From the NCBI GenBank assembly GCA_963281255.1, contig OY725493.1, positions 2,759,857-2,823,856 on the forward strand: DNA of 64,000 bases. The letters are read 5' to 3'. This DNA comes from Aphrocallistes beatrix. Its lineage: Eukaryota > Porifera > Hexactinellida > Sceptrulophora > Aphrocallistidae. The notes below the pieces were generated by a model, which made no database searches, was not told the origin of the DNA, and saw only the letters and a program-made list of their open reading frames with translations. This document shows, piece after piece, positions 1 to 49,119 of this stretch; the stretch's first letter is position 1, and every line of letters starts with the position of its first letter. Made by a program: the position numbers and the translations under genes.

Positions 1-3000
1 TCAATTGCGTCCATTCTAAAAGCAAGAAAGCAATCTTCGACCATCAATTCGTTAGTACATATATCTTTACGTTTAATCTCGTTCAAATCATCTCTGGAGA
101 AGTAAATAATTATATCAGGGGAGTTGCTATCTGAAGTAAATCCAGAGGAGAGCTGGTGCTGAGAATCCATTTGAAATACAACACTCCTATTGTTCCGAAT
201 AACCCAATAATTAAACACTACACTGCTGCTCAAAACTGTTTCATCGAAGTTGAGCACCAAAACTCCTAAATCAAGATCCATCGTGAAATTGTATAGAGAA
301 GGAGAAGTTATGTCCATAGTGTAATTTGCTACTCGTAAGGTAGCGATCGATAGAGTATTCATGTTCATATCAAGAATTGTATTTTCTCCGACAGCTATAT
401 AAGTTGTCGATACATTTATAGCCAGATTTTGAAAAGATTTGATTGAGTTTAGATCATTTCTAGTCAATGAAAATGTAAACTCAGGCCCATTAGAAGATAC
501 AGAAACATATTGGCCAGAAAGTATAAATATCTCTCCTGAGAGATCGAGTGAAGAAGAGATGGTTATTTGAGAGGTATCAAGACTTGAAGTGTTAACTGAT
601 TCTGATAATCTAAATGTAATCGTTCCGACGTCCATGTCCAAATCGAATGAGTCAAGAACAGGCTTAACTGAATCTGGAGTAAAGGTATCCACTTGAAAAT
701 GCATGACAATAGGGATGCAATTATTAAATACGTCCCTTATGAAGCACCTTGAAAACAAAAAGGTATTCGCTTTAGAAGTAGCCAAATCATTTCTGATCTT
801 GATTTCATTTAAATCATTGAGTGATATTTTGACCCGCATAACATTGGAATCTGATGAAGTTAGAACAGTGCTAGTCTCTAGTTGGTAGAAACTATGATAG
901 GCCTGAGATGTATTGGAAGAGCCATTAGATAACGCAATGATGTTTGGAAGAAATGATTGATAACTCACAGTCTCTGAAAAGGAAAAAACAATTTCTTCGG
1001 TCGTAAGGTCTAATAAGAACGATTCCAATTCAGGTGGAATACTATCTGGAGTAAAGGAAGACACAGGTAAGGCTGATATTCCAGCGAGTCTCATGTTAGC
1101 AAAGTTTCCATTAACATCTTGAATTGCTAGATCAGAAAGGGTAATGAATGCAGTTGAGCTTGAGAGAGCTATTTTCTCAATTTTTAAAACGTTTGTATCA
1201 TTACGGCTGAGGGAGAGAAGAAGTGCTGAGCTTAATGCAGTCGACGAGACAGTGGTACGGGATGAGAGTATGTGCACCTTTGATGATTGGACACCAGAAG
1301 TAGTCTGTAAATTGATCGCGGAAATATTCAAAGTTATCGGATCTATGATTTCATCAAATTGAAGCGTAAGGATGTTGGAAGTGAGATTAAGCTCCCATGA
1401 AATCAAGTTAGGTCCAGTTGAGTCATCGATGAATTGAGTTACTCGGAGTGCGTTGTTCGAGGTTATAGGCACAACTCTATTCGACGATAGGTCTTGCACG
1501 AGCGAGTCTGTGTGAGACAAGAAAGTGCTAGTATTAGACCTCAATAAGGATGAAAGTTCTTTCATTGCATTTATATCAAATTGAGTAAGGTTAATCATGA
1601 CCATTAATCCATTAGAAGTACTGATGGTTCCATCAGTAAGTTTGTAATTTTGTGTCCCTTGCAAGTTGGATTCAGTTGAAGAGAATGTGATGGAAGTAAG
1701 GTTTAATGTTGAAGCTTTAATAGGTTCATCAAAGTTCAATATCAACTCACCTCTATTAAAGTTTAATGCGAATGCTGTCAGCTTTGGTCTTACAGTATCA
1801 CGGAAATAACTGCTCATGGAGGTGCATTGGGATTGCATCAAGTTGTAATTGGCAGATTGCGCAGTATCTTGGATGGTATTTGCCATAATTGTAATGCAGG
1901 TTGTGTTTGCACTAGTTGCCAATTGAGTATTTAGTTTTATTTGATCCAGGTCGATTTTCAGGAGATAAATATCTAATCCAGTGCTCAGCGAAGTTGAAAC
2001 TTGGCTCTCTCCAGTCAAGAGGTAAAATTCAGATTCCCCGACTAGAAGACTCCTCTTCAGTTCTATTCTACTGGAAATGACGGTGTCTGGGACGATTATC
2101 TCGTCGAAGGTGAGAGATAGTCTTCCATCAGTGAGATTAAGTCCCACTTCTAATAACCTAGGCGGTGAAGAATCGGCAGTATATGTCTCAGCGATGCGAG
2201 CATTTCCGTTAGAAATCTCTATGAGGGAAAGTCCCACAAAATCGTTAATAAGCTCATTCGTTGCGCTTAGATATGTTGTCGATAAATTTGAAGCAAGAGA
2301 CGTCAACTTTTTTATTTCATTCAAATCTTCCGTGCTAATTCGAATAAGAATCTTCGTTAACGATTGCATTGTTGAATTTCCTCGAGCGAGCTGATGAGAA
2401 GAAGAATCTGAGGCACCAGCAGATTGAATTTGGATAGAAGAGATGTCTAAGCTAGAAATATTAACTACTTCTGAGAAAGAGAGGGATAACTCTCCTAGAT
2501 TCAAATCGAACTCGTGAGAGAGCAGGCGAGGCCGAGAGGTGTCAGGGACATAAAGGGAGACCCCCAAAGAGTCGAGAATGTTAATCGCGCGATATTGGTT
2601 GTTAGCAGAGTCTGTTACAGTGCCTAGTTGTAAGGTGAGGTAGGTTGAAGTGTTAGATACAGCTAATAGAGCTAAATATTTTATTTGATCAACATCAACT
2701 TGTTCAAGATTGATAGAAATGACCGTTGGATTGGAAACATTTGCCGATCCTCCGGTAGCCATACCGCCAGTGATAGAGTGTGCCTGAGACTGTAGAGATC
2801 GATTGTGGTGAAGCGTTATCGTATTTGAGAATAGTTGCAGTGGCATGACAGTCTCAGAAAAGGTAAGCGTAAGAAGGAAGGCGTCTAAATCTAATCCAAA
2901 AGACAGCAGAATCGGAGGGGTAGTATCCTGGGTAAAGTTACTTGTTAAGATAATATCGGGACAGAGAGAGTTATCTGCCATATCGGAAAATGATAGCGCA

Positions 3001-6000
3001 CTCATATTTAGTAAAGTATTCGAGCGGTCAGATGCCAAGTTAGAATAGAACTTAATCTGATCCAAATCCATCTGAGATAAATCTATTTTTATAATAGTTC
3101 CATCACTTGATCGAGTAGCGGCATTTTTTAGTTGATACCTAGTTGAGAGAGTTGAATTAGCTGATATGAAAGTAATTCCATTCGGATTAAGAGAAGAGGA
3201 GTTTATTGTTTCATCGAAAGTGAGAAATAGTGAGCCGCTGTCAAGGTCAAATGTATAATATAACACACGAGGGCAGGTAACATCTCGATCAAAAGAAATA
3301 GCTTGAATTGCATTAGAATCAGGTCTCTGAACGACAGGGTTTCCAAAAGTATCTAGGATGAGATTTTCAGGATAGCTGAGGTAGAGATTGTCTCGCGAAG
3401 TGGCCAAGGATGTTAACAATTTAATCTCATTTAGGTCTCCAGGATTTATGAGAAAAGAAATGGTCGTGAAATCTATGAAGGAAAGTAAGGATATATTGTA
3501 TTCCAATGAATAAGAAATTATCGTGCTAGTGCTATTCTCTTGCAGAATTAGTGATCTATGATTAAGAGAATAAATGTTTGGTGTTTCCGAGAAAGAAATT
3601 TGAAACAGTCCGGTGTTCAGATCAAAAGAGAAATTTTGAATATCAGGAGCAGTAATGTCACGGAGGAACCATGAGACTCTAACAGCATCTGTTGAAGAGA
3701 TTGGTGTCAGGGGATTTGAATTCATGTCCAATACAGCCGAGGAAGTGACAGTGATAAACGTAGAGTTAACGTCTTCAGCAAGATTCGCAATACTCTTTAT
3801 GTGATTAAGATCAAAGTTTGAGAGGTAAATCACAATGATATTACTATTCAATTGAGACGCAATGGAAGAAGTCAAGGCTAGCGAATTTAAACTCTGATTC
3901 TGGAGAGACTGCAATGAAATTGCTGGGATTCGGAAGGAAGAAGCATTCACAGTCTCACTGAACGTAAGATTGAGCAACCCTGAGTTCATGTCAAGAGAAA
4001 ATGAATCCAGAGTAGGAGGAGTCATGTCAGCGGTGAAATTAGAAACTTGTAGAGCAGTAGCGTTGTTGATTGGATTGACGTCATTTCCATTCATGTCCTT
4101 GATCGCGTCTTCAGTTATTACCAGGAACGAATTACTTCCATCAGTGGCTAGGGTGTCGTAAAATTTAATCGCATTCAAATCATAGTTAGATATCATTACT
4201 GTAATGCTAACAGAGAAAGACGAATTGGAATAAGATTGAGAACTAAGAGAATGCCACACTGAATCCAATCTTCTTGAAGAATACAGACTAATCTGTCCGA
4301 CCAAAAGTGAAGATGCGTTTATAGTTTCACTAAAGTAAAGCTGCAATAATCCCCTGTTCAAATCTAAACTAAAAGCATTGAGTGAAGGCCTGATTTTGTC
4401 AGGGTAAAAACCAGCAGCTTTGAGAGGAGAAAAGAGTGGAGTAACAGGGTTGCCGTTCGTGTCAGATATTAAATCTGATGAGAAAGTAATGAAAGTGGAA
4501 TTTAAAGAAATAGCCAACTCAGTATTCTCCTTGATTATATTTAGGTCCGGATTAGTCAGTGACAGCTCAAAATAAATATCATTTGTCTGATTTATCACGT
4601 GCCCTCCAGTTAAATAGAGAAGTGAAGAGATGTTGTTAGTAAGAACTATTTGCGAAGCGAACAGAGATTTCAAGTTTATTGGTTCATTAAAGGTTAGTGC
4701 TAATATTTCAGACGTTAAATTGAGAGAAAATTCGGTTATATCGGGAGCAGTCGAGTCATTAAGGTACTGGGATACAGATAGCGCATTAGCCGGGGTGATA
4801 GAAACGAGTGCATTACGATACATATCCTGCGCTGTTTCATTAGAAACTGTAATAAAAGTGTTTGTTCTCATAGTGGCTAGTGAAAATAAAATCTTTATTT
4901 CATTCAAGTCAACTTCATTCAGTGTAAATGAAATTGTAGGGTCGTCAGAATCCTCTGTCAGCAAGCCACCGGTCAAAGAATAGGAAGTGGAGTTACTTCC
5001 TGCGCGATTCATATTCTGCAATGCTATCGTTTCTGGTCTGAGAGAAGAAGAGTTGATTGTCTCATTAAAGTATAGAGTGATTACGCCGGAATTGAGATCC
5101 AAGTCAAAAGCGAAAAGATTTGGATTACTAATATCTGGATAAAGTGTAGACACCATTTTAGCGAAAGAAGATGATATATTAACTACTTGGTTGTTATCCA
5201 TGTCTTTGATCAAATCACTACCAAAGCTTATATAAGTATTAGACAGAGAAGTAGCGAGCTGAACGATTCTTTTGATGTTGTTTAGGTCTGATTGGAGAAT
5301 GGAAACCGATACAAGTGGCTGATTGTAAGCTGTCATATCAAACCTAGGATCAAAAGGAGCAGAGAAAGCTGCTCCCTGGAGAGAGTAGCCAAATAGTGTA
5401 GATGTGGAATTCATTTGTAGAAGTATTGAGTTGGGGGAGAATGGACTGATATTCACTACTTCACTGAATGTCAGTATTAGCATTCCAGTATTCAAATTGA
5501 GCGAAAAAGATACAAGAATCGGCCTTGCCGTATCTGATATATAACTGCGTACTTGCAAGCTGGAATTATTGATAGGAAGTATGCCATTGGAAGACATATC
5601 TGCTACAAATCCAGAATTGATTATCAAGAAGGTATTCGCTTCTCTGGTTGCAAGCTGCTCGCGTTTCTTTATTTCGTTAAAGTCTTCGTCTGTGATAGTG
5701 AAAAGTAGAACGGGTCCACTCGAATTAGTAGTGAAGGTAGATTGAAGAGTATAAAATAAATCGCTTGTGTTTAGAATTGGAGGATTTTGATGTACGAGTG
5801 ACAGTCGGGAAACGTTGAGAGATGAAACATTTACAGTTTCAGAAAAGTAGAGCGATAGAGTTCTTGAATTAAGGTTGATGTCAAATGAAAATAATCGTGG
5901 ATTTACGTTATCAGAGATGAACACTGACGCGTTTAAAGTAGAATTGGCAGCTATTGCTTGAATGGGATTATCAAACGTGTCATTTATAAACTTAGATGAT

Positions 6001-9000
6001 ATAGAAATAAAGGTGTTAGCTAGACTTGTTGATAGTTCTGATAATTGTTTAATAGAATTTAGGTCTGAAAGGCCGAGATATAAAATTAAAGCATCGGAGT
6101 CTGTCGAGTTCGAGAAAGTGACAGAGGTGAGGGTATACGTTTCAGAGCTGTCATTTCTCTGAGAGTGGAATGTCAACATAGTCACATCAAGTGTTGCTAC
6201 TGATATCGTTTCTGAAAAGTTCAGTAAAAGAATTCCATCTGTGAGGTCTAGTGAGAAGCTAATTAGAACAGGTGGCGTAGTGTCAGGGACGTATGTGGAC
6301 ACTCTTAGCGTGTTTACTCCGTTCTTCAGCTCCTGAACTCGCTGATTGCTCTTATCCACAATCGCACTGCTCTCGATGGCGAGATAAGTGAAGTTTTCCA
6401 ATCGAGCAATTCTTCTTTGTTTTAAAACGTTCAAGTCCGAATTGATGAGTTGGAGATAAGCGATAGTGCTATCCCCCAGCACGAACAGATTGCCGTCAGT
6501 AAGAGAGTATCTATTGCTCGAGAGGGTGACATTAGCCGCCTTTTGAAAAGTGATACTTTCAAACATGACACTCGACACATCAACAGTTTCGGGGAAGGTG
6601 AGGCTTAAGATCCCTTCGTCCATATCGAGACCAAAACTAACAATAACTGGCATCGTCGTATCGTTAATGAAAAAGATTGCTTGAATTGGTGAAAATAGAG
6701 AATTAACTGGATTATTATTAATATCACGTACGAGATTCGAGGCTACGTAGAGGAACGAGGTACTCCTGTTGACAAACAGAGCATCAATACGCTTGATTTC
6801 ATTGAGGTCGTCATCAGATAAATTAACTAGAAGCATCAAATCATCAGTATTGTTAGCGAAAGCATCTTTTACGCTGTAAGATTGGGAAATTGATTGGTTT
6901 GGGGAGTAAGCTAGAAATATACTATTTGTGACATTAAAACTGGAAGTTAGAACAGGTTCATCGAAGTTGAGAGTGAGAACTCCCGAATTCAGATCCACCA
7001 TAAAAGATATTATATTCGGGTTCACTTTGTCACTGGTAAATGATCTCGCGCGAATCGGAGAAAATTGAAGATTGGGATTGGGCATTAAAGCCATATCCAA
7101 AATAGAATCATTCAAGAGTACGAGATAGGTATCGTTGATTGAAGTGGCAAGTTGTCTGTTCAGTTTAAGAGCATTAATGTCATCTCGATTTATCGTCACT
7201 GTCACAAGAGTAGAATTATTCTCAGAAATATTTCTATATGTCGAACTAAAGGCAAATGAATTAGAAGAGATAATATCTGACAAAAGTCTTATCCGAGAAA
7301 GGCTGAGACTCTGCACATGAACTATTTCATCGAATGTAAGTGTCAGAATATCGAAATTTAAGTTGAAAGCAAACGACAATAGCAAAGGTCCCTCAGTGTC
7401 AGGGAAATAGTTCTCCGCTCTCGTAGCTGCAAACGCAGAGATAGGGATTATTTGGTTGTCGTTCATGTCTGTAAGGAAGCTAGAAGTGAAACTGATAAAA
7501 GTATTATCAGGACTGGTTGCTAACCCTGGCAAAACCTTCAATGAGTTGGCGTTGGTAATTCCAAGAATAATATGAGTATTAGGACTGTCTATTAAAGAAA
7601 TGTTGGAATTCTTATTTTGGAGGGAAATATTACTTCCAGTGGTATTGGCGCTGGATTGTAAGATAATAGTGGATATGTTGAGACTGGAAGCAAGAATCGT
7701 CTCAGAAAAATTTAAGGAGAGTAGAGCAAGGTTCATGTCGAGGCTGAACTCGACCAAATAAGGTCTCACGGCATCTTCTATATAAAGCGATGCTTGAAGT
7801 GAATTTGATTTTGAAATAGAGTTCACAAAATTCCAATTCATATCAGTAATAACATCTGACTGTAATGATAAAAATGTATTATTGATGTCTGTGGCCAGGT
7901 AATTTAGCTTTTTAATGTTGTTAGAATCATTAATTCCAAAAATGATAACAATAGAGTCATGATTTGCAGAAGTTGAATAGGATTCGGATAGAGTAAAGCA
8001 AGTAGACTCGTTCAAACTGCTGATAGTTTGGGACGGGCTTAAAGTGATGCCTGATACTTGTAGAGTAGACGTACGAACAATCTCAGAGAAATACAGGATG
8101 AGCTCGCTGGAGTTAAGATTGAGGGTGAACCTCACTAAGATTGGGCTGGTAACGTCTGGGACGTATTTATCGGCAATCAGAGCTGAATCAGGATAAATTG
8201 CGTTAACTCTGTTGTTATTCATATCTTTAATTATATCAGTCGTAAAAGAGAGATATGAGTTGGTCAGGTTAGTAGCCAGTGAAGAGATGCGTTTAATTTC
8301 ATTTAAGTCGCTGTGACCAATTTGAATTATAATCGAAAAATTATTCATTGAGACTGTAATACTGGCAGGGGTCAGAGAATAAAAAGTGGTAGTAGGTTGA
8401 AAGGGAGAAGAATTTTGAAGTGTTAGTAGTGACACATTTAAAGATGAAACGCGCACAGTTTCTGAAAATGTGAGGTGTAGCAAACCAAGATTCATATCCA
8501 GTATGAAAGAGATGAAATTAGGGTTGGTTTTGTCTGAAGTGAAGGAGGCTACTGGTAGAGGAGATTGTGAAATGACTGGAACCAATAGATTTCTGTTCAT
8601 GTCCAATACGCCTCTTTCTAAAGCAGAGAGAAAGGTAGTGGATTTGGATGTTGCCAGTATAGGAATCCTTCGAATCTCATTGCTGTCTATTAATGAGATA
8701 TTAAGATATATAATAGGGCGATTACTGGCACTCAAATTCCCGCTGGTGAAGGTATATGAAGAAGAATTCAAATAGGAAGAATTTTGAGAACTATGAATCG
8801 TAAAAAGATTTGGCATAAGGGATGATACGTTCACTGTTTCAGAGAAATATAAAGTTAGGACATTCGAATTTAAGTCCAAATCAAAACTCTCTAAAACTGG
8901 AGAAATAAAATCTCCGAAAAAGTTAAACACTTTTATTGGGCTCGACCTTGTAACTTCAACTAACAAATTCCTATTCATATCTCTAATAGTGTCCTTAAGA

Positions 9001-12000
9001 GCAGAAATATAAGTATTATTAGCTTCTGTCGCCAGTAACGGGATGCTCTTAATAGCATTTAAATCTGTTAAGGATAAATAGACAGCTATTACATTGTCGT
9101 AAACAAAAGAGGAGCGACCCTCTGTAAGACTATAAGAATTTTCCAAAAATTGATCATGGAAGGATAATTCTGAGATGATAAATGAACTTCCGTTAACAGT
9201 CTCGTCAAAAGTCAAAATTAAGAGTTCTGATGTCAGATTGAGAGAGAAGGAAAGTAATAGGGGGCTGGTTGTATCAGAGCTAAAGTTAGCAGCCATGAAA
9301 CTTGAGGAATTAAGTACAGGAGAAACAGAGTTCTCCATCATATCTGATGCCAAAATTGCAGAATAAGAAATAAACGTATTCAAACGGCTTGTAGCGAGAG
9401 TAGGTCGAGCCTTTAGGGCATTAAGGTCGGTATGGTTAATGAAAGTGACTAGAGTTGTAGAATTTTGCAGTGACGAAGTACCATACTTGAGAGGATATGA
9501 TATGGTTTGATTGGACAAGAAACGCGAATTGTGAAGTATGATATTGCTAGGAGTAAAGCTGTCAGCTCTAATTATCTCATCAAAAGTGAGAATAATTTGG
9601 CCTACATTTAGATCGAGTGTAAAATTGAGCAGGAAAGGAGAAGTTTTGTCAGCTATATAAAGCCAGGCTTGTATAGCTTTCTCGTGAGTAATTGCTAACA
9701 CATCTCTCCCAAATACATCGTCAAAAGAGTCTGCCCTCATACTGAGGAAGCTATTGGTAATAAGCGTCGCTATATAAAAATTTAGTTTTATTTCATTCAA
9801 ATCAAGAGTCGATAGCTGCAAAGTGATGTAATAGCCATCTTCACTCTCAGTAATAGTTGAGCTAGAAAGTGAATGCATAAATTCTAAATCAAGAATTTGA
9901 GACTGTTGGATTGTAAACACGTTTGAATAAAGAGTGGATGACCTTATGATATCATTAAAAGTAAGGTTAAGCAGTCCAATGTTCATATCCAAAGAAAATG
10001 CGACAAGTGATGCCCTCGTATCATCAGGAACTAGCCGAGTAGATTGCAAGGACACTGAAAGAGGAATGGTCTGAACGATGTTGCCGGTCATATCTCTAAT
10101 CCCATCAAACTGCACACGTATATAAGTATCATCTCGCGTAGTCCCAAGCAAAGAAGAGAGTTTAATGTACCGAATATCTTGCTGAGTAAGGTAGATGGAA
10201 ATAATCATCGTCCCGTTATAATTAGTACTATCAACTATATATCCACCTGAGAGAGTGAGATAGTCATTCGGAGCAGAGGTGTCAGAAACTAAGGTGAATT
10301 TGGAAACGTTAAGTGTAGATATTCTGATGGGCTCATCGAACTGCAAAGTCAGACTATCTGAATCCAGGTCCAATGAGAAGGAGTCGATAGTTGGCGGGGT
10401 CATGTCTCTCGTGTAATTCGAGGCTCTCAGTGCTGAACTTGGTAGGAATCCGTTTATGTTGTTGGGTGAACGTTTGGCCAGATCTGTGATTAAATTATCA
10501 CTAAAATAAACAAAAGTATTCGAAGTAGATGTTGCTAAAGTATCAATAGATTTTAGCATATTGACATCCTCCAATGCTAGATTCAGGGAGATTAGGATGC
10601 CATCATCGCTAGTTGAATAGCCACTAGTCAACATGTGCGAAAATTGAGAATTTGAAAAAGAAACATTGTTTTGGAATATTAGAGAAGATGGGTTGAGAGA
10701 AGCGACACTGACAGGCTCGTCAAATGTTAGAATAAGGAGATCAGAGTCAAGATTAATTGAGTAAGTGAGTAAATTGGGAGAGGTAGTGTCATCTATGAAT
10801 GAGACTGATGCTATTGCATTGGAAGATGGGATAATGTTGACCGCATTATCTGCCATGTCCAATACAAAACTGTCGGAAAATGAAAGCCAGCAATTGTTTT
10901 GGTCAGAACAAAGTCCAGGAAAGAGCTTAATAGCTTGAATATCTGGTAGAGTTAGTTTAAATTTAATGGTATAGGATGGAGAAGAAATTACAGTCCCGCC
11001 AGTTAACCTAAAGTAAGATTGAGGAGTTCTGAAGAATGACTGAAGAGAAATCTTGGTTAAATTAACGCTGGTGATGTTAATCGTTTCGTCCAGAATTAAG
11101 GTAATTGTACCGTTATTAAGATCAAATTCACTAAATTGTAGAACAGAGGGTGGAGTGTTATCATCTACAAAAACGCTGGCAGAAAAACCACAACCTTCAA
11201 ATACAGGTTCAACTGGATTACTATTCAAATCGAAAATGCGATCCCCATTAAATGTTAAGCAACAGTCAGCAGCTTTATTATCATCAGTACATAATGATGC
11301 AAATTTGATGTCGTTTAAATCTTGTTGAGTGAGATAACAAGTGAAGAATGTTTGATCAATGCTAGTGCACTGACCTCCAGTCAGAGTGTGGTTGTAAATA
11401 GATGTGGTGTTGGACACATTTGAATAAATTCTGCTATAGTAACAACAATCTAGGAGAGTTAGTTGTTGGATTCGTAAAGATGAAATTGTAATTGCTTCGC
11501 TAAAATTTAATCCAAGTTTCCCAACGTCCATATCGACCTCAAATGTGTTGAGAATGGGGTTAATTCTATCAGAAGTAAAATTAAACGCATTGAGGGCGTT
11601 TACTGGGAATATCTCGAGAACATCATTATTATTCATGTCTCTTATCCCACCTGGCATAAATGAGAGGAATGTTGTATTCAGTGAGGTAACGAGGGTAGGC
11701 ATCAACTTCAAATTATTCAGATCATTGAAAGTGAGCTGGAGGGTAAGTATGTCACTGTTAAACTGAGATATTGTACCGCCGGTGAGGGTATAGGTAGCGA
11801 CATCATAAGAAGAGTTTGAGCGGTTCTGAAACGTAATCGCACCCGCAATCAGAGACTGAAATTGCACAACTTCTGAAAACGTGAACACTAATTCAGCGAG
11901 AGAGAGGTCAAGAGAATAGTTGAGGAGAACAGGCGCTGTTGTATCTGGAATATATTGAGTTACTCGATTCCCTCCACCATTCAATATTGGTTCTACCAAA

Positions 12001-21000: not shown

Positions 21001-24000
21001 TCCATATTAAGGTCAAATGAAAGCAATTTAGGGCCAGTTCTATCTCCAATATACTCAGAGGTAATTGTTGCATTTTCTCGAGTTATTTCTAAAATAGCCA
21101 GACCAGCCATATCTCTAATTAGTTGTGACGTTACGCTAATGTAAGTATTAGAGGTCATCTTCGCAATTTGGGGAACCCTTTTGATGTTATTAAGGTCACC
21201 ATTCAAAATCCGGATATACAAAACTGATGCTGGACCATCATTCATAACAATGGCATCAGACAAAGTAACGGAATGTGTCCCATTTCTATCGTTCAATATG
21301 CTAATCTGTGATCCGTTAAAAGTACTGGTGTCGACAGTTTCACTGAATGTGAAGATAAGAATACTCATATCAACATCAAATGAAAATCTACTCAGCACTG
21401 GATTTGTTGTGTCTTGGATAAATGAATAAGCTTGTATTGCACTCAAATTAGATATTGTATTAACTGGATTCAAATTCATATCTGAAAATGCATTGCTTGA
21501 TAACGAGATAAACGTGTTGTTCACACCTGTAGCCAACAGTCTAATTTGCTTTATAGCGTTAAGATCTTCGATTGATAATTCAGTGCTTATTATATAATAG
21601 TTTGCATTAGAAACAAAAAGATTTCTCAAAACATAGGAGTTTATTAAATTGGTATCATTTTGCAATAGAATGGCAGAGGGGTATACAGAAGCAGACATTA
21701 TAACTTCATCAAAAGTAAACTCGATCAAGCCAGAATCGAGATCTAGAGAGAAGTTGATGAGTTTAGGAGAGACATTGTCTGGGATAAATTTAGAAACTGA
21801 TAAAATGCTACTAGATGAAAATGGTCGCGCGATTATTGGATTTCCAGAAATATCAGAAACAAATGTATTAGGGTATGAAAGGAAACAATTCGAAGTTTGA
21901 GTACATAATTCAGTCTGTAACTGAATGTTAATTGAGTCATTGAAAGCTATAACGATGGTGAGCACATCAGTAGAAGAGGCGTTATAGAAGCTATTCCGGA
22001 AGGAAATGTTTTGAGTGATCCCACTATCGATTGGGCTTCGTAAAACAAGTTGGTTAAGCTGAAGTGTGTTCACAACATCAACAGCCTCAGAGAAAGTCAA
22101 AACCAGAATTCCGATATTGAGGTCAAGTGTGAAGCTAACTACCTCAGGAGAAATTAGATCAGGAAAGAACTGCTGAGCAAAGAGTAGCGTAGGAGTAACA
22201 TAATTGCCGCTGACATCTGTTGAGACGGCAGCGCTGAGGAATAGGAACGTATTCTCGCGTAAAGTTGCGATAGTTGAAAGCAGTTTTAACTGATTGAGAT
22301 CAGGTGTCGACAAGGAAATGTCAACTATGTGATAGTTTCTAATTGAAATAACATTTCCTCCTGTTAAGGGATAGCTAGCAGATGAATTATTAGAAATCTC
22401 AAATTGTGTCAAGTCAATAGATAATATATCTATTGTCTCAGAAAACATAACAGACATAATTTCGGAGGACATATTCAAAGAAAAAGAGTTTGGGTTTGGT
22501 CGAGTCGCGTCACTGATAAACATATCAGCCTGAAATGCGTTTTCAAAAGATAAAGGTACATTGAAATTGTTTGACATATCCAAAATAACAAACCCAGTTA
22601 GTGATATAAACGTATTAGCAATGGATACAGCCAGAGATCCTTGCTCTTTAATGGCATTCTGGTCATTGACTCCAAGATTTATAGCAATCACATCTGAATA
22701 AAGGAGAAGAGGAGTGGAGCTGTTGAAAAGAGTATGCTGATTGCCCTCAAAAGGATAAGTAAATATTGTTATTTGTGATATGTTAAGAGAAGAGCTATTC
22801 ACAATCTCAGAAAAGTTTAAGATCAATTCGTTAGTATTGAGATCAAAACTGAAGCTAACCAAACTAGGCCCTAAACCATCCTCGATAAACAACGAGGCCT
22901 GTAAGATTTGAGTGAGGTTTAGGTAATTACCATTAGTATCTCTGATAATATTTGGATATGTTGTTATGAAGGTGTTAGATATAGAAGTTGCGATTGAAGG
23001 ATCTCTCGTGAGCAGATTAATATCATTTTGTGACAAGTTAATTAAAAGGGTTGTCAATTGTACCCTACTGAAATTGGTATCAAGCGAAAAAGCAGGTAAC
23101 CTTGCACCAAAATATGAACCATGGACTTTGAATTTAGAAACATTAAAGCTATTAGCGTCAATAGTCTCAGTGAAAGTTAGAAGAATAGTGTTTGAGTTTA
23201 AATCAAGTGTGAAATTAGTGAGATATGGTGAGGTGGAATCAGGAATTACCAAGTGAGCTTGAATTATATTTTGATCAGTTGTAGCAAGCACATCTACTCC
23301 ATAAACATCATTCAATGTATTTGCATATAAAGTGATATAGGTATCATTGACACTAGTCGCAATTGCTAAATTATCTTTCAATCTATTCAGGTCATCAGCT
23401 GTTAGATTGATAGCTACGCTGTATCCATTTTGCAAGGTGGCCGAAGTAAAAGATGTCAGCGTATGTCTACTCAGAAGTGGCGAGTATGCCATACTCTGAA
23501 TAGTAATACCATTTATATTTAAAGAGTTCATAGTCATCACATCATTGAATGTCAGATACAAGATTCCTCTATCCATGTCGAGACTAAAAGACTCCAATCT
23601 TGCAGGAACTGTGTCAAAAATGTACTCAGCAATACTGGTAATAGCAAGGTTGGGTTGCAGTTGTGTATCTGTAATAGCACCATATTGAAGTGAGATGTAA
23701 ACAGAATCTCCGGGATTCATATAACCACTATGGTTCTTTATTGACACAAGATCACCCCGAATTAACTGAAATATGATCGTATCTGAATTTTCCAAAACAA
23801 ACAGCATTCCACCAGTTAGGTTCTGACTCGTTAAAGGAGAGAAATTTTGAGAACTACTTAAAGTTATTAAATTAAATCGAAGGCTATTGGGTACAACAGG
23901 CTCATTAAATTTTAAGGTTAATAAATCATCTCTGAGGTCAATCGTAGTCTGAACAAGTATAGGACCGGAAGCATCAGGATAGTGAAAACGAACTTGATTA

Positions 24001-27000
24001 GCTGATGGCAGCGATATAGGAAGAACGTAGTTGGGAGGTTGAGCTCTATCGATCAGAAGAGTGGAAGGGAAAGTTATATAAGAATCGTTCTTTCCTTTAA
24101 CAAATGAGGTTCGTCGAATAGCGAGTAGATCTTTTGAAGAAATCTGAAGTACGACAGTGCGAACATCTACTAGTGATGTTGATTCGTCCGACAATCGATA
24201 AGCATCGGAACTATTCGATGAAGAGTGGAATGAAATGGGAAATAGATCTGTCTCCACAGATACGGGCTCGTTAAAATAAAGCCAAATCGTGCCATTGTCG
24301 ACAGATATGTCCCAAAACAGAAGAAAAGGTTGGAGATTATCTTTTATAAAATTGAGTACGTATTTCGCATTGAAATTGTAAATGGCACTGCTTGGGTTAC
24401 TGGCCATATCAAAAACAGAGGCGTTCGCAAGACTGATCCAGCAAAGATTCCTCTTTGTGCATACTTTAGGATGTGACTTAATCGAGTCAACATCTTGCTG
24501 ACCAATTTGGATCGTGACAAGATGAGAATTTGAATGTGAAATTAATCCAGTAGTCAGTGTGATATGGAATTCGGGGTCTTCGAAAAAAGTTTGGAGAGTA
24601 ATCGTAGCAAAATCAAAAGTTGAAACATTAACAGTCTCATCATATTGTAGTGTAAGAGTAAGATTGACAAGATTAAATTCTGTGAAAAACATCAGAAATG
24701 GTTTTCTCTGGTCAGGAATAAAAATATCAGGTTGAATAGCTGAAGCAGGCCCTATGGAAATAATTGGATTTCCGGCCATATCGCTAATAGTACTATTTGT
24801 AAACGTCAAGTAGCAATCGTTTTCACGTAACAAATCAGTGCACAAAGACTTGAATTTTATTTCATTGAGGTCAACGTCAGTTAGTTGGATATTGGAAAAC
24901 GTACCATCTGGCACTAAGCTCATTCCTCCTGTTAACCTATGATAAAAGTTATTGACGGAAGAATTGAGTGATCTCATAATAGAAATTGAAAAAATATTTC
25001 TCTGATTTAACAGAATGATTTCTTGTACAGACAGAGTAGATATGTCAACTGTTTCATCAAAACTGAGAGTTATTATTCCCTGGTTCATATCAATTGCAAA
25101 CCTTACAAGTGAAGGAAGAGTGGTGTCTGGATATAGATTTGCTGCTTGGAGAGCAGATTGTGCTAATATCTCAACGATTTGGTTCCCTGAAGTGTCTTGA
25201 ACAAGATTTGATGTCGAGTGCAAAAATGTGCTGTTTCGAGTTACTGCCAAGCTAGTCAACCTCTTTAATTCATTCAAATCTGTAGCTGAGATGTTCAAAT
25301 ATATTTTAGTATAATTTTTTAAGATGTAAAAACCACCAGTGAGCTGATAAGACACAGAGTTGATAACGGAGGAATCTCCACTAGACTGAATCGTGATTTC
25401 TACCGGCGTAAATGTGTCTATACTTACAGTCTCGGAAAAGGTTAGATATAACAAACCTAGGTTAATATCTAAAGAGAATGTTTCTAATTTTGGCCTAACT
25501 ATGTCGCGAATAAAAATATCAACTTGAGATGCTATGTCATTAGAAATTGAAATGACTGGATTCCCAGCCATATCCCTAATCGATTGTGATGTGAAGGATA
25601 GGTAGGTAGAAGATTTAGAAACAACGAATGATTGAGATTGGAGCTCCTTGATTCTATTAAGATCTTCGTCTGACAACAGAATTACAATATTAGGGGAGTT
25701 GGGAGAAAGAATAATAATATTTTGTAGGCGATAGTACACTCCATTGCTAGAACGGGCATTTTGTAACAAAAACTCCCCAATATTAAAACTCGATATATCA
25801 ACCGTTTCAGAATAAAATAACGACAAATAACCGAGAGTAAGATCAAGTTGGAAAGAATTGAGATAAGGGGGCGTGCTATCAGCTGTAAAATTATTAACAG
25901 CTTTTACAACAACATTAACACAATTTCCAGCCATATCCTTGATGAATGATTCGTTATATATATGCAAGAATAAATTATTCATAGTTGTGGCCAACTCAGT
26001 GAGATTTTTAATTTTGTTCAAATCTAATTGAGTAAGTCTGATTTCGACAACAGGACTATTGGAACCGAGAACTAGCCCGTCTGTAATGTTATAAGATTGG
26101 CCTGCATTAAGAGAACCCGAGGATGATATCAATAAAGTGCTTTGGAACTGAATAGTAGAGATGTCCATTGTTTCTGAGAAGGATAGTAACAAAATTTCTG
26201 AGTTCAAATTAAGGTCAAACGAAATCAGAATGGGGGACTTTTTATCTGATACAAAATTACCCACAATCTTGGCATCTGTATTCATAATAGGATCAATAGC
26301 ATTGTTTACCGTATCCTTTAGCAATAAAGGCGAATGGTAGATGTAAGTAGAAGAGGCAGATACAGCTAGGGTTTCAATTCGCTTAATCTCATTCAGATCA
26401 TGAAGGCTTATTTCAACAGAAAATTGATTGTCATTAATCAGTGTTACAACAGTACTATTGAGAGTTAAGGTATAAGAAGGGTAACCAGTACCATTTCTCC
26501 GATTTTGAAATGATAGTTGGTTTAGAGTGATAGAAGATACAGAAATGGTTTCTGACAGATAGAGCGTCAGAACGCCAGTGTTCATATCTAAGTCAAAATC
26601 CATCAAATAAGGACTGGTTGTGTCAGATGTATAATTAAAAACTTGAATGGCATTAAAACCATTCAAATGTGGAACCGCAAAATTTTGGTTCATATCCCGC
26701 ACAGTTTGATTATCAAAAGTTAAAAATAACGTCGCACTGCTTAACCCGATGCCCCTCCTTTTGATCTCGTTAAGATCTTCTGTACTCAATACGAGCATAA
26801 TCAGGGAAGAAGGTTCCAAAGAGACAATATCATTCGTCTCTAAAAAGTAAGAATAACTGCTACTGTTGACAAATGAATATCTTTGCAAAGATATTCCGCT
26901 GATGTCCAAAGAAGTGATGTTCATAGTTTCAGTAAAATTGAGTGAAAGTAGGCCAGAATCAAGATCAAAATTAAAGTTAATAAGTCTGGGCATTAAACTA

Positions 27001-30000
27001 TCCATAATATACATTGATGCTCCCAAGGCATCCTGAAAGGTTCTCGGAATAATGGATCTAAAGTTTAAGTCAGACACTAAATTAGTTGTAAAAGAGACAA
27101 AAGATGTTTCCACTGAAGTAAACAATTCAGTTTTCTCTTTGATACCATTTAAATCCTGCAAAGATAATTGTATTGTAATACTAAGGCCATTTAGGTTTAC
27201 AGAATTGTTATTGGGAATGAATGAAATAGGATAGATAACCCGATATAAAACACCAGTCTCAGAGAGATTATAGAAAGATTGAAGTGTCAAAGCAGCTATA
27301 TTAAAAGAATTCCCCAATACTGGCTCGTTAAAATTGAAAATTATTTGCCCAAGGGATAGATCTACAACAAAACTTTCCAAATTAGGATGAAGCAAATCTT
27401 GAGTAAAGTTGGATACTTGGAGAGTTAAAGGTACAGCATAATTTGGAATTAGAGAAAAGTCTTTAACTGCACCAGTTGCAATTGTAAGAAACGAATTTGA
27501 AGAAGCAGTTGCTATAGATGTATCCAACTTAATTATATTGAGGATATCAACATTAAGTTTCAAAATAATTGCATTGTGATCGAATGCTCTGGAGGTTCCA
27601 TCAAGAGTAGTCAATGTTGAGTTGAGCGAAGATCCCAAATATAATGATTTGGGATTAAAACTGGATATATTGATGGTTTCATCAAAATATAAAATTACTG
27701 TTCCATCAGAGAGATTAAGATCAAATATTTGAAGAACAGGTCCTTGTGTGTCGGGGACAAAATCCTGAGCCTGTAATCCATCCATAGAGGGTATAGAATT
27801 AATAATGAGGGAAGACATATCTTGGATTGTGTAGTTACTGAGTGAAACGAAAGTGTTATTTAAATCTGTAGCGAGAGATGGAATGTGCTTGATGGAATTA
27901 AGATCATTCACCTGAATGGATATTTTGATAATTGTATCATCTGTATTCAAAAGTACGGTCTCGCCTTGATTCAATGTATATGCATCAATAGTCCCTGCCA
28001 TTGCAGATTGCAGAGTAATCCCATCGACACGTAGTGAAGAAGCATTGACTGTTTCTGAAAAGGTCAGAGTAAGCAACCCTGCATTGAGGTCTAAACTAAA
28101 GTATAATAAACTAGGTCTCGTAGAATCCGGGATAAATCCCAAGGCTTGGGTGGCATTACTGCTATTGACGGCTTGAACTGGATTGAAATTCATGTCACTT
28201 ATTGTCAGAGAAGAAATTGTCAAGAAAGTAGAATTTATATTTTCTGCAAGTCCAATGAGTCGCTTCAGTTCATTCAAGTCTGTTTTACTAAGGACTACGA
28301 CCATAATTGTAGAATCTGAAGAAGTGGTGTTAGTAGGAACATTTAACCTCAATGTAATATTCTCAGCAAGATACCTGTCTGATTGTAATCTGAGACCTGA
28401 GGGATCGAATGTTGAGCTATCTACAGTTTCTGAAAATGTTAATAGCAAAATACCCGAATTGAGATTAAGAATGTAACTAATCAGTTTGGGCTTTGTAAGG
28501 TCTGGAATAAGTTCAGAAATGGAAAGAGGATTTGAAGTTTCTACAGGCACCAATAAATTCCCATTCATGTCAGCTATTGTAAATTGAGTAGCAGTAAGGT
28601 AGATATTATTCATATTAGTTGCAAATGCCCTGATACGTTTTAATTCATTTAAATCATTTTCAGGAAAGAGCAGAGTAATAGCAGTATTGGAATCGCCAAG
28701 TGCAGAGGCGGGACTTAGTGTTAGCCTTGTGGTTAAATTTGTCACGGGCACTGCACTGAAGAATGTTAATTGCGTTGTATCCAATGAAGGAGTAAATACA
28801 GTTTCGGAAAAGGAAAGTGCTAAAACCCCCGAATCAATATCTAATGCAAAATCTAGCAAGGTAGGATCCATTTTATCTTGAGTATAAATACTAACCTGTT
28901 GTATTGTACTCCTCACATAATTCTGATTCATATCCGCGATACTGAAGTTGAGTAAAGAAAGAAAAGTGTCATCCCGAGTTGTTGCCAGATCCATAAAATA
29001 TCTTATCCGATCAGAATCAATCTTACCAAGTGTAATGCTTATAAATATGTCGTCGTAAGTCGAACGATTTCCGGAACTTAATGGATAGAAACGAGTGTGA
29101 TTCATACCTTTATTGGTCAGAGTGAAACGTGGAAACAAAATGCTACTAGAATTCATTGTTTCAGAAAAGGTTAATCTGAGCATGTCTGAATTGAGATCTA
29201 AATCGAAGGATTGCAACATTGGATCAACAGAGTCTGGAGTAAAGGACTTAACTTGCTGTGCATCGGTAGATGGAATGGGGAGAAATGGGTTATTTGACAT
29301 ATCTGATACTAAGAGATTGTGAGCATATACGAACGTTGTATTGATATCAGTAGCAACTGTTGTAAGCCTCTTGATGTTATTGAGATCTTCAAAAGAAAGC
29401 CTGAGGTTGAGATAAATAGAATCGAAGGTTGTAACGTCACCACCTGTCAGTTGATAGGCAGAACCACCTTGTGAAGAAGATTGAAAAAATAACTCAGAAG
29501 GTGAGAAGGTATTGGCTCTTATTGTCTCTGAAAAAGTAAGTCGTAAAAATTCGGAAGTAAGATCAAGGTCGTAGGACACAAGAATAGGTTGAGTAGAATC
29601 GGGAAGAAATAAGTCCGCTTGTTTCGTATTTGTTGAAAGGATTGGTACAATCGGATTGTTGTTCATATCATAAAGAGTTGTGTTGCTAAAATAAATAAAG
29701 GAATCATTTATCGATGTAAAAATTCCAGGGGTTATCCTCTTAAGTTCATTCAAGTCACTAAAACTTAATGCAATAATGATAACAACACTATCTTCGTCAG
29801 TAGAGCTGCCGCCATTCAAAGGAATGATTATTGATGAATTGGAAACATTTGGTGCATTAATTAGAATAAGATTGGAAATAACTAGAGTAGAAGCTCTTAC
29901 AGTTTCAGAAAAGGTTAAACGAATCTCGCCTCTATCCATATTTACAACAAAGATGCGTAAACTTGGTTGATTAGTGTCAGGAATAAAACTAGAAACAAAA

Positions 30001-33000
30001 ACACAGTCAATAGTAGGATTGACTTTGCGATTATTGGTATCAACTAAAGGAGAAAAGGGAAAATCTAGTATATTTAAACAAGTATTGTTGGCTTGTGTAG
30101 TTAACAATAAATCTTTTTTCAGAGCATTTAAATCTAGACTAGAAAAAAGTATTGTGAAAAAGTAATTCGAGTCTGTTATAGCTATGGATCCTGAAGTGAA
30201 AGTGTAGTTTGTTGAACTAAAAGAATTTCTATTATCTTGTAGAACCAACCCAGTAGGGTTGAAGTCACGAATTAAAATGACATCATCGAAGAAAAGTGTC
30301 ATCGTTCCTTCGTCCAAATCAATGTTGAACGATAATAGGTTGGCAGGGAGATTATCCCCACTGAACATATTAACCTGGAGAGCTGATAGATTGGAGAAAA
30401 CAAGAGAAGGGTTATTAAACATATCTCTGAATCCATCTGAGAGAACAGATGTAAAACTATTATCTTGAGATGTTAAGAAAAAGTCATTTAACAAGATGGG
30501 AAGTAGATTTTCTCTAAACAAATCTATTCTCAAAACTCTCTTTTGGTTTGATAGAGGTTGATGATAAGAAATGTTACCATTGATTAAATTTTCGTAGAAA
30601 GTTGTATTTATTGTTATATTTTTAGAAGACTGAAGAGTAATAAAAGGAGGTTTCACAGATGAGAGGTATACAGGTTCGTTCGCTGTTAGGAGGATGTATT
30701 TATCGCTGAGATCTATATCAAACTGTGAAAGGGATGGATTAGTCATATCTGGGACGAATGTTTGAGGCTGAATACCACCAGAAGATGTGGTTGAGATAGG
30801 CTTGTTATTATTAACATCTTCAATAATCTGATCAGTTATTGTAATAAAAGTTGAGCTAGCGTCAATTGCCAAGCTTTCTAAAGCTTTAAGTTCAAAAGAA
30901 TCGAATTCATTCAGTCCGAAATGAACATATATCCAGTTTACCGAAGTGAAGGGAGCGACTCCAAGGACTGTCCCAGTAAGAGTATGATTTTGAGTTGAAT
31001 TTATAACGTAATTACCAATGGTAATTCCTCGAGCATCGAAATCGGAGACGGACACGACTTCATCAAAAGTTAAAGTAATGTTCAACAAATCTAGATTAAT
31101 ACTGAAATCGAGAAGTATCGGCTCCTTGGTATCCTCAGTGAACATGTCTGCGTGCTCAAAAGTAAAGATTTGCTGCATTGTTGAATCATTAAGACTTCTT
31201 GCCAGATTTCCCGCCATGTCCCTAATAACGAATTGAGTGAACCGTATAAAACAGCCCCTGCGAGTAGGACATACGTTTGAACTCTGCTTTATTCTATTGA
31301 GATCAAATCTCTCCAACGTAAAGCGAACTGTGAGTTCATCAAGTTGGACAATGTTGTATCCTCCTGTGAGATATATCACATTAAAGGGGTTGAAGTTACC
31401 GTCGTCGAACCCCCAAGGTTGAAATCTGATTTGAGTCGGATCAAAAGTAGATACGTTTACAGTTTCGTCAAACTGAATTGTAGCAGTTTCTTCGTTGTAA
31501 TTAAAATCAATAAATTGACGGAGAAAAGGGGAATATCTATCTGGAGTAAAAAATCTTGCTTGGATAGGATTTCCAAGTGTTCTGGGTTCAATATTATTAT
31601 TATTCATATCTCGAACTAGCTGATTAGTGAACGATAAATAGCAATCTGATTGTCTTCCAAACTCGGAACACAACTCCAAGTTTTTGATAATGTTGCTATC
31701 CTCAAAGGGAATCGTCACTTTGATTGAAATGCCGCTTTGCTGAGAGAAAGATCCACCAGTTAGAGTATAGTTAAATACAGAAACCCGAATTGTTTCATTC
31801 ATAAACTCTCCAGATGTATTTGAGAGCACCAATGAAGCATTGCTTAGAAGAGTAAGTTTTGTTACATCTAAAGTGCTTGCATTTACTGTTTCATTGAAAT
31901 TAAGATGGATGCAAGGAAGCGCGTCATTAAAATCAATATCAAATGAATTTAAAATTGGGTCAGTATTGTCGCTGAAATAAAGCCTAACAATTGAAGCATT
32001 TCCATTTATTTGGGGTATGATCGGATTGCCATTCATGTCATTAATCAAATCGCTCGCAAAACTAATAAATGTAGTAGTATTGGAAACAGCCAGATTCGAG
32101 AACAATTTCAGTGTGTCTAAATCCGGTTTCAATATTCTGAAGCAGAATTCAGTGTCGTTCATGAGCGAGAAGTTCCCTCCTGTAAGCATCAGATCTAACT
32201 CATTACCTCGGCTAGTTGTTTCATCATTTTGAATCGCAATAAGATTAGGCTTAAAAGAATTGACATTGATTGTTTCTGAGAAATAGAGAAAAATCTGACC
32301 ATTATCCATATCGAAGTCAAAATAGCTTAAGTATGGTCTTGTAGAGTCAGGAATATACGAGTTTGCTCTTATCCCCATTTCTCTTTCAGTAGGAACAATG
32401 GTATTTAGATTCATATCGGTTACTAGAGCAGAGCTGTGACTAAGATAAGTGTCGTTAATATGTCTAAATAGAAGTGTATTCTGCTTGACATATTCGACAT
32501 CTTCCTTGGCTAATATTAGTTGGACGAAAGTTTCATTTTGGCCAAATGTGGCTCCACCTGTTAAATTACGATAATTTTGGGAAATGCTGAAATCTTGTAG
32601 AGTGATATGTATTGGATCAAAAGAAACAATATTTACAATTTCAGAAAACGTCAACGAAAGTACAGGGGTTCCATCAAAATCTAGGTTAAATGAGTTAAGC
32701 ATTGGAGGGACTAGATCAGGAGAGTAGCTACTCACACCGAGAGATTGAGAAGCTAATATACTGGTGACATTATTGTTATTCATATCAGCGATAAAATGTG
32801 GAGTGATCGAAACGAAGGTATCCTGTTCAGAAGTAGCTAAATTGATCAATTTTTTTATTTCATTTAGATCAATTTGCTGAAGTACAATTGTAATAACATC
32901 ATCATCCCCAAATGCAGAGATCCCATCAGTTAAAGAGTAATTTGTTGATTTAGCGGAAGAATACGAGTGAAAGGTGATTTGACTAATGTTTAAACTACTT

Positions 33001-33585
33001 GCAAGGACAGTTTCAGAGAAAGAGAGTTTAAGTATTTCACTAGTAAAATTGACATCAAAACTCAGGAGCATTGGTGAAACTAAATCAGGGTAAAATAGCG
33101 TAACGGCTAAAGAGGAATTGGTAGATATAGGTCGGACTTGATTTTGGAAAGTATCAGATATGAAATCAGAGCTAAAACTCAAGAAAGTCGAGTTTGTTGA
33201 AACAACAAGATTTATCAAACGCTTTATGTTATTTAAATCATATGTACTGAGATTGATGGTAAAATCGGTGGCGACATCACCAGTACTCGTGCTAGAATTA
33301 GTTAAGGTATATTCAGAAGAGGCAATATATCTTGAATTCTGAAACGTAAGAAATTCAACCCTAAGACTTGAACTGATGTCGACTACTTCATCAAATCTTA
33401 ACAAAATATTTTCATTAGTGAGATCGACATCAAAGGAGAACAATTCAGGTGAAGTAATATCCGACTGATATAACGACTGATTACTCTGAAGGGGTGAAAG
33501 TGCGTCGATTTGTGTATAAACCTGCTGGTTAACCAGATCACTAATGGCTGTACTGTCAATAATGAGAAAACTCTGGTATGAATAT
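1..33585 (-). CDS. Giant exon (partial) of an Ig-like tandem-repeat protein, about 89 modules
   Basis: The minus strand stays open in one frame from 33585 to the left edge, about 11,194 codons without a stop. I confirmed the same frame by translation near 1-250, 9960, 19840-20280, 28020 and 33585. The acceptor is a pyrimidine/AT-rich tract ending CCTAG just before 33585. It supplies the one base that completes the AG left by the previous exon, and the join (..LGIG-R-YSYQSF..) fits the repeat. Every ~377 bp the module recurs: D-x-x-x-P-x-L-x-x-F-x-L-D-L-N-x-G-x-L-x-L-T-F-S-E-T-V-N, then L-T-G-G, D-L-N-x-I-K, N-N-T-F-L-S and D-M-N-G-N. This resembles the SbsA-type Ig-like fold (Big_5, with 'tFsepv' and 'D-x-x-G-N' signatures). 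Many N-x-S/T sequons and paired cysteines suggest an extracellular location. The role is inferred to be adhesive or structural. The C-terminus lies beyond position 1. The coding status and frame are near certain; the domain family is probable. Confidence 0.95.
1..33585 (-). repeat. Array of about 89 coding tandem repeats, period about 377 bp (125-126 codons)
   Basis: The F-x-E-T-V motif centres read by eye (within about 10 bp) lie at 243, 602, 975, 1350, 1727, 2100, 2468, 2850, 3207, 3583, 3953, 4327, 4685, 5060, 5460, 5836, 6208, 6584, 6957, 7323, 7700, 8082, 8458, 8836, 9199, 9574, 9950, 10332, 10712, 11083, 11495, 11872, 12235, 12623, 13003, 13385, 13760, 14142, 14540, 14923, 15287, 15668, 16042, 16457, 16822, 17203, 17573, 17977, 18378, 18750, 19116, 19481, 19846, 20228, 20598, 20969, 21336, 21700, 22080, 22433, 22801, 23160, 23534, 23898, 24261, 24630, 25041, 25426, 25801, 26167, 26544, 26924, 27318, 27673, 28048, 28420, 28797, 29155, 29520, 29899, 30275, 30670, 31053, 31460, 31886, 32269, 32635, 33007 and 33384. 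Mean spacing is about 376.6 bp. Units differ widely in sequence, so the array is old rather than a recent satellite. Confidence 0.93.
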
Positions 33586-34085
33586 CTAGGAATTAAAGTT
33601 ATAATAAATTTCAGGAAATTAAGCTTGATGGTAAGTTCAGAATCTAATCATTATCCCTGAAATTTGATAAATTTTAGATTGTTTTGTGGCAGGGGCGTAA
33701 GGAAGGGGGGAAATTGAGCCGCCATAAGTTAATACGTCATCATGGTACATTAATACTCAAATTAATTGACTGATATGCTTATAACACGAGATATATAAAT
33801 TCTACAAACACTAAAATGGACATAAAAAAAAACAACGTAACATTCTTACATTATTATTCCAAAATGATTACTCATCATGAGTGATGACTATATTGTCACC
33901 ATTCTTTTATTTTTAGTTTAACCATGGCCTACTCAATAGAAGGCCTAACAGTAGATTGAAAATTATGGACTATGGATGAAGGAGTAGCAGATTGAAATAA
34001 TACTAGCCTAGAATCGTTAACCATGCAGAATAGTATCTATGAATCTATTACCAGCATATATAAACATGGTGTCAAAGTACACATA

Positions 34086-34490
34086 CAGTGGAAACCGGTT
34101 ATAAGAACATCGTTGGGAGTTGAAAAAAAAGTTCTTATAACCGGTATGTTCTTATAACAGTATTTCGGTTATAAGAACATGTTCTTATAACCGATATAAG
34201 AGGTTAGATATGTCGGTTATAAGAACATATTTTGTTCTTTTTATCGGTTAAGGAATATATGTATTGGTTGATTTGGTACATACGTACCATATGTTGAGTA
34301 TAACTATACTGTACACGTACACTACCTACAATACTACTGCAAAATGAGAACTTGACTACTAATAGTTTAGAATTTATCGATAGAAAGTTCTTATAACCGA
34401 TATTAGATGTTCTTATAACCGGTTATGTTTAAATAGCAATGCATAGAAAAAAATCCGTTCCCAAATAAATGGTTCTTATAACCGACACTG
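34086..34490. mobile_element. TA-flanked CAGT-ended MITE (Tc1/mariner/pogo-like), 405 bp
   Basis: It begins CAGTGGAAACCGGTTATAAG and ends with the inverse CTTATAACCGACACTG. It is flanked by TA on both sides (34084-34085, 34491-34492). The GGTTATAAGAAC motif also recurs inside near both ends. No transposase is encoded, so it is non-autonomous. The TA duplication and CAGT ends are typical of the pogo/Tigger branch. Confidence 0.85.
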
Positions 34491-34618
34491 TATCTTATCA
34501 AATTTTGACTAGTCATCATAATGTTGCGCAACAGGCCATATTAAGGACGAATTCAGCGATTTTCGCTATTTTAAACCTACTTTAGGTATGATTTGGGTGT
34601 AGAACCAAGATGACTAAT

Positions 34619-35431: not shown

Positions 35432-35533
35432 TGACTAATGGATGATGTGAAAAATTTAATTGTTGATATGGGAAAGCATTTTGATCATTTGGGGTCATTC
35501 TTGGAAACCGTAATAACTAGGCATTCAAATTAC

Positions 35534-37254: not shown

Positions 37255-37669
37255 CTAAAAATGATACACATGATAATATAGGAAAGAGCAACTATTTTAA
37301 AGAGAATATCATGAAATAAAATACCCTATATTAACACAATTTGCAGTGAATATGTTAAATTTGAATAGACACTTATAATATAAAAGCAGGAGGTGGTGTA
37401 ACTTCGTGAAAAAAGATAGTGCATATATACATCATATTGGTATTCCACATGTGAAATTTGGCATAATTCGAACTGTTAGATTTCGCAGAATCCAAGATAA
37501 TTTTTAATATACTGGAGTATTAGCAAGTGGCTCTCGCATGTTCGAGCCTCAGACGAATAAAAATGCATCAAGAAATGATGTCATTGTCACATTTTTTAGG
37601 ATTAAAAATTCCGGATTGTCCAACATATGTCTCCTTGCCATTTGATAGTAGATTTAAATTAATCTAGAG

Positions 37670-40184: not shown

Positions 40185-40284
40185 CTAAACAAATATATAA
40201 ATAAAAAAGATGGTCGACAGACCGATAGTGCAGCCCCAGTAAATGATGATATTCGGGGCGCATGAATTAGGTCGAATTCTGATG

Positions 40285-41260: not shown

Positions 41261-41473
41261 TCACACCTTTATATACATATATTCACTCCATTTGACGAAT
41301 TTTGAAAAATATGCTAGAGAAATTAATTTTTAAATGGATTAATGAAAAGAATCAATATTAGGCACTATTTAATATCGACTCTGCGGACACCAAGTGAACC
41401 GCGATATGCAAGTTCCCGAAGCGGGCTTGTACAAAGTATATTGATCCGATTAAACTAAACATCGAAATCTTAC

Positions 41474-49101: not shown

Positions 49102-49119
49102 TATAAACATTATATGTTA

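Follow-up and report, generated by a model that had tools for sequence, protein, structure and literature searches.

MUC16, a secreted or cell-surface glycoprotein, has a very long exon, and algal giant polyketide synthase genes and some protist genes possibly have exons as long as, or longer than, the one described here. The 17,106-bp exon of titin reportedly codes for the super-repeats of that protein. In the available text of two papers, this is the largest titin exon (PMC9845391, PMC12198301). An earlier sequence-only reading of the present DNA had compared its giant exon with the largest human exons, and for titin that comparison stands. The titin value contradicts the available part of a review, which names the 11,487-bp SACS exon as the longest in vertebrates (PMC8745260), and the accessible portion of PMC12300183 merely mentions gigasynthases. 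The C-zone super-repeats of titin, according to the accessible text of PMC10665226, comprise 11 domains, span approximately 43 nm, and are most alike between domains at equal positions. In the literature covered (titles and abstract openings, with few subscription papers or preprints), neither a coding exon as long as ours nor this protein was reported.

The exon described here is about twice as long as the longest of titin; we claim no record for it among all known exons. The locus resembles titin in encoding a giant chain of Ig-like beta-sandwich domains with higher-order super-repeats and in that one exon of the gene is very long, but the domain family is different and the period is 18 domains. 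Titin is cytoplasmic, whereas the protein encoded here is probably secreted and glycosylated.

The window, i.e., the whole 64,000-nt stretch of DNA that was analyzed, is open in one frame of the minus strand from position 33647 to its left edge (11,215 codons without a stop in an open-reading-frame scan). The acceptor TCCTAG, followed by ATATTC, places the start of the giant exon at 33585. Counted from the acceptor, the exon (1..33585, minus strand) has 33,585 bp in the window, or 11,195 stop-free codons, and the chance of such a run from base composition alone is log10 P of approximately −297. It encodes the final part of repeat 16, followed by repeats 17 to 105, of an Ig-like array, and no intron was seen in it. 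Repeat 105 is truncated at the window edge; since the edge falls inside a repeat, the true exon is presumably longer than 33,585 bp, with its 3′ end beyond the window. The remaining open stretches of at least 300 codons (574, 432, and 415 codons, each on the minus strand) carry upstream exons of the same gene. These results agree with the sequence-only reading, which had proposed one coding exon spanning 33.6 kb or more, open from 33585 to the window edge and ending outside it; at the level of genomic sequence, the single exon is borne out by the acceptor, the unbroken frame, an intron-less tiling by repeats, and a register shared with the upstream exons.

Repeat tiling served as a coding test independent of the openness of the frame. 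A repeat HMM, built from the frame itself, gave 90 matches along the open frame, beginning with the end of repeat 16, and 89 copies of an Ig-like domain of approximately 125 residues covered the giant exon from one end to the other. Identity between repeats was 41%, 52%, and 33% at codon positions 1, 2, and 3, respectively, vs. 27%, 28%, and 30% expected from composition. Mean pairwise protein identity among the 105 repeats was 0.293 (maximum 0.443), and in view of this low identity the array looks old and maintained by protein-level selection. Recent duplication from neighbor to neighbor was rejected, with a mean identity at lag 1 of 0.294 vs. 0.293 overall. When the DNA of the giant exon was compared with itself, three matches of 22–43 bp were found (E ≤ 1e-3), one of them a 22-bp palindrome; with self-similarity this close to zero, collapse or misjoining of near-identical repeats is unlikely as a source of the exon.

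Upstream, the same Ig-like repeat array is interrupted by seven introns. The upstream exons were found by repeat-HMM matches in seven open pieces, and the GT-AG splice sites were picked by eye, including the acceptor CAATAG of the most upstream exon. All features lie on the minus strand. The giant exon is preceded by a GT-AG intron of 1,948 bp in phase 2 (33586..35533) and an exon of 1,721 bp (35534..37254), which contains Ig-like repeats and ends within repeat 16. Then follow, in the upstream direction, an exon of 1,100 bp that also contains Ig-like repeats (39085..40184); one of 1,183 bp that starts in phase 0, six codons ahead of the first Asp of a repeat (41474..42656); one of 411 bp with a phase-0 start fifteen codons ahead of the first Asp (43973..44383); one of 556 bp with the paired Cys residues of repeats 3 and 4 (45127..45682); and one of 542 bp, again with a phase-0 start six codons ahead of the first Asp (50709..51250). 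The most upstream exon found (56978..57355, phase 0-0) has 378 bp, which is one repeat length. It is preceded by CAATAG, so at least one further upstream exon presumably exists. The seven introns, all GT-AG, measure 5,727, 5,026, 743, 1,316, 1,289, 1,830, and 1,948 bp. When spliced, the eight exons formed one stop-free frame of 13,158 residues and 105 repeats, open at both ends, with both termini of the protein outside the stretch assembled from the window, and the other two frames contained 969 and 1,300 stops. The calculated mass of this part of the protein is 1.46 MDa and its pI is 4.3. Codon usage in the giant exon was correlated with that of the upstream exons at r = 0.958 (introns, 0.51).

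It is conceivable, but in our view unlikely, that the giant exon is split in life by coding introns (exitrons) or by alternative splicing that removes whole domains, with mature exons shorter than 33.6 kb. Seven normal introns are present upstream, and the excision of in-frame repeat-coding DNA would still leave a valid protein and would be invisible to the frame. However, nothing in the giant exon resembles the introns of the gene, of which the smallest upstream has 743 bp. Over the 105 repeats, inserts reached 14 aa at most and neighboring repeats were separated by no more than 17 aa, which leaves no room in the giant exon for an ordinary intron of the gene's own kind. Several introns hold many dispersed, inverted, or tandem repeats, whereas the giant exon has hardly any.

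Other features of the window were recorded as follows. The 5,026-bp intron contains two tandem arrays (46413–46937 and 47083–47384; units of 32 and 31 bp) that are mutually inverse and may represent a mobile element whose inverted ends are repeated. A near-palindrome of 963 columns (about 48110–49052), 93% identical to its own reverse complement, lies in the same intron, and the 5,727-bp intron contains 2.9 copies of a 141-bp tandem unit (54930–55333). Inverted copies were found at about 59340–60225 and 60837–61874, with matches of 343 and 553 bp, each at 95% DNA identity. They hold a Cys-rich CXC-like ORF (59897–60268, minus strand; 60718–61170, plus strand) without a Pfam match at E ≤ 0.1, which we take to be of a type found in transposon-derived genes of invertebrates. 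Six other ORFs of the window matched no Pfam family at E ≤ 0.1, and the tRNA and Rfam scans gave no match.

Repeats 1–90 form five super-units of 18 domains each (1–18, 19–36, 37–54, 55–72, and 73–90), as indicated by lag analysis and Cys pairs; introns included, this region extends over 5535..57337 on the minus strand. In the lag analysis, the mean of each repeat was removed first and lags 1–94 were compared with 200 shuffles of repeat order. The highest z-scores for identity were found at lags 36 (9.35), 18 (6.73), 54 (5.64), and 72 (4.17), followed by 1.62 for the next best lag. The shuffle maximum across lags 1–94 was 4.07, and lag 72 alone was marginal. Lags 18, 36, and 54 were recovered by BLAST bit scores and with the repeats of the giant exon alone; in the latter set, with few pairs left, lag 72 had a z-score of 1.74 by BLAST scores. 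Lags one to three off the multiples of 18 showed no consistent signal in blocks of twelve starting repeats. Super-unit partners were 30–35% identical, vs. 29% for nonpartners. By unit position, partner likeness was strong at positions 4 (class z = 7.1), 7 (8.5), 15 (4.9), 16 (5.3), 17 (4.8), and 18 (4.3), and there was no partner signal at position 9 (class z = −0.4).

Cys pairs of the form C-x5-8-C, at an equivalent place in each domain, occurred in repeats 3, 4, 21, 22, 39, 40, 57, 58, 75, and 76, and elsewhere in repeats 47, 103, and 105 only; a looser pattern added repeat 51. Positions 3 and 4 were Cys-paired in each of the five units, and these positions, chosen post hoc, accounted for 10 of the 11 Cys-pair repeats among repeats 1–90 (P = 2e-12). 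The 18-domain super-pattern is a new observation. Judged from identities and Cys pairs, the period of 18 over repeats 1–90 is a super-repeat design of the titin type. No 18-domain register was found in repeats 91–105 (1..5534), and for repeats 91–104 the best of 18 shifted registers was unconvincing (z = 2.8). The Cys pair of repeat 105 could mark the start of the next unit after an insertion of approximately 12 domains.

The register points to a single gene, since unit 1 (repeats 1–18) covers every upstream exon found and continues into the giant exon. Repeat genes are generally prone to misassembly, and the sequence-only reading had named the joining of separate genes by the assembly as a point to be checked. 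We consider an artefact uniting separate repeat genes very improbable here: the repeats are at most 44% identical, the giant exon is almost without DNA self-matches, and the 18-domain register and the codon usage run on continuously into the upstream exons. What the earlier reading missed is the intron-split array upstream, the identity of the domain, and the super-repeat.

AlphaFold2 predicted a beta sandwich whose one helix lies at the DLNxIK motif, both for single repeats (pLDDT 96.8, pTM 0.88) and for 87 tandem pairs (pLDDT 96.8, pTM 0.89). Asp 1 and Asp 102 of the repeat were invariant among 87 repeats and Glu 25 was nearly so. The best PDB structure matches of the single repeat, and the only ones at E ≤ 0.001, were SbsC structures 4uic and 4uj6 (TM 0.60 over the query, rmsd 3.3, 16% identity). 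The best PDB matches of a two-repeat model were ordinary Ig, FnIII, and antibody chains (TM 0.2–0.3), and in its Foldseek search 7dm0, the C region of a biofilm-associated protein, ranked fifth (TM 0.23 over the query). The BFVD fold search had among its matches phage proteins of the Ig-like and FnIII types, with partial TM. PDB sequence searches returned a single weak match each (E of 0.0072, 0.23, and 0.52), and NCBIfam and PHROGs gave isolated weak matches, none common to more than one of the 87 repeats.

Among Pfam families, Big_5 (PF13205) matched 8 of the 87 repeats at E ≤ 0.1 (best 3.3e-4; member 1, 15.9 bits), and the DxTxP ... FSE motif of the repeat is presumably typical of that family. 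By Pfam score the array does not qualify for Big_5: the best larger piece (35530–37254) scored 21.7 bits, below the cut-off of 23.6, and no single repeat among the scores listed reached the curated threshold. We therefore term the repeat SbsC/Big_5-like and not a Big_5 member, and a TM of 0.60 denotes resemblance of fold, not proven kinship. The likeness consists of the best fold match of the single repeat and partial Pfam matches, whereas the gene here has introns, at least 105 copies of the domain, and 16% identity to SbsC. A weak match to the Ig-like domain of NUP210 was found in 2 of the 87 repeats (E = 0.085). Two families were rejected after a Pfam search of seven pieces (27003–33647, 21003–27002, 9003–15002, and 3–3002 of the giant frame, and three upstream) and among the best 25 of 32 families listed for the 87 repeats: titin/connectin, with no I-set Ig, FnIII, or kinase match, and the cadherins, with no cadherin match. 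Mucins of the MUC16 type were also rejected. MUC16 and this locus share a very long exon, but the protein here has confidently predicted folded domains instead of disordered Pro/Thr/Ser tandem repeats, no mucin tract, and, in the part encoded by the exon, a proline content of 3.7%.

N-glycosylation sequons were more frequent in the repeats than expected: 358 were counted, vs. 266 ± 10.6 in 300 within-column shuffles (maximum 300) and 269 for the reversed motif. When the giant exon was divided into ten segments, sequons outnumbered the reversed motif in nine and equaled it in the other. This excess indicates passage through the secretory pathway, and the protein is probably secreted.

The nearest solved fold of the single repeat is that of bacterial SbsC, and together with the Big_5 hints it could suggest that the gene is not eukaryotic but bacterial, encoding an adhesin or S-layer protein, or that the DNA is a contaminant. 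Against this origin, to which we give almost no credence, splicing of seven GT-AG introns yields one frame, several of these introns are rich in repeats, the sequons are in excess, and two pattern-limited scans found no relative among 84,980 prokaryote species. Pattern scans of viral contigs, including one with a neighboring transposon-like ORF, and of prokaryote genome contigs found no relatives, nor did tblastn against plasmids and phages. The long query comprised 2,215 of the 11,215 residues, and as the collections cover prokaryotes, viruses, and plasmids, these negatives do not bear on animals. Bacterial giant adhesins and biofilm proteins (Bap and others) are likewise rods of tandem Ig-like domains; however, no sequence kinship with them was found, and the gene here has introns.

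In the best reading of these data, the giant protein would be secreted and rod-like, would serve as a scaffold or in adhesion, and would have a titin-like design built from a different domain family. We consider it fairly probable that the locus is part of a single gene of a eukaryote, probably an animal, whose giant secreted product consists almost entirely of tandem Ig-like domains resembling the SbsC/Big_5 type and would act as an extracellular rod with periodic scaffold or ruler function. The animal assignment draws on the introns, the transposon-like DNA, and the type of the CXC-like ORF. Once exported, the chain would extend as a rod covered with glycans, within a matrix or coat outside the cell. 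Ca2+ binding at domain joints is known for the Ig domains of S-layer proteins and adhesins, and the conserved acidic residues of the repeat (the first Asp, the FSE Glu, and the IxDM Asp) may stiffen the joints through putative Ca2+ binding. At the spacing of titin (11 domains per approximately 43 nm in the accessible text of PMC10665226), each 18-domain unit would measure approximately 70 nm. The same candidate binding sites would recur in every unit, namely the Cys-paired domains 3–4 and the better-conserved positions 4, 7, and 15–18, the latter being natural candidates for periodic binding sites since partner likeness is strongest there. With such regular recurrence the protein could act as a ruler or as a scaffold with periodic sites; in titin, a super-pattern of this kind allows muscle filaments to be measured.

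The giant exon, with introns on its 5′ side only, most likely arose by duplication of super-units within an intron-free 3′ array or by later loss of introns there, for instance, through recombination with a partial cDNA. Loss through partial cDNA is expected to strip 3′ introns preferentially, and, in the available text of PMC3652778, not all studies find this bias. The data fit intron loss via partial cDNA as well as an array that expanded without introns and acquired its 5′ ones later. The exon starts at 57355, 51250, and 42656 fall at the identical codon of the repeat, in phase 0, six residues before the first Asp, and each begins with Val, which suggests an old arrangement of one repeat per exon. 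A full version of this history, in which an array of one domain per exon lost the introns on its 3′ side, for example through partial cDNA, and so produced the longest animal coding exon on record, and in which the protein is an extracellular ruler, a secreted megadalton filament with an 18-domain, S-layer-type Ig super-repeat of approximately 70 nm, convergent with titin, seems doubtful to us.

The same protein could have a different history, in which the giant exon is ancestral and was never split, and intron gain, confined to the 5′ part, followed the duplication of the super-units. To this we give somewhat less than an even chance. Five of the seven introns lie at differing places in the repeat (HMM positions of approximately 47, 112, 17, 19, and 86; phases 2, 0, 1, 0, and 2), as expected for independent gains, and the corresponding sites in units 2–5, all contained within the giant exon, are free of introns. 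However, the three exon starts at one codon and phase suggest an organization that the 3′ array has lost.

On our preferred reading of a secreted scaffold or adhesion protein, the locus would encode a giant protein of folded domains, with a calculated 1.46 MDa in the window and one exon about twice as long as the longest of titin. The protein is probably not a muscle protein, which would place a super-repeat architecture outside muscle. The finding raises the question of how a spliced gene gains an intron-free stretch of more than 33 kb, and exons of this length bear on exon definition and nonsense-mediated decay. It also raises the question of whether super-repeats may serve as rulers in extracellular assemblies.
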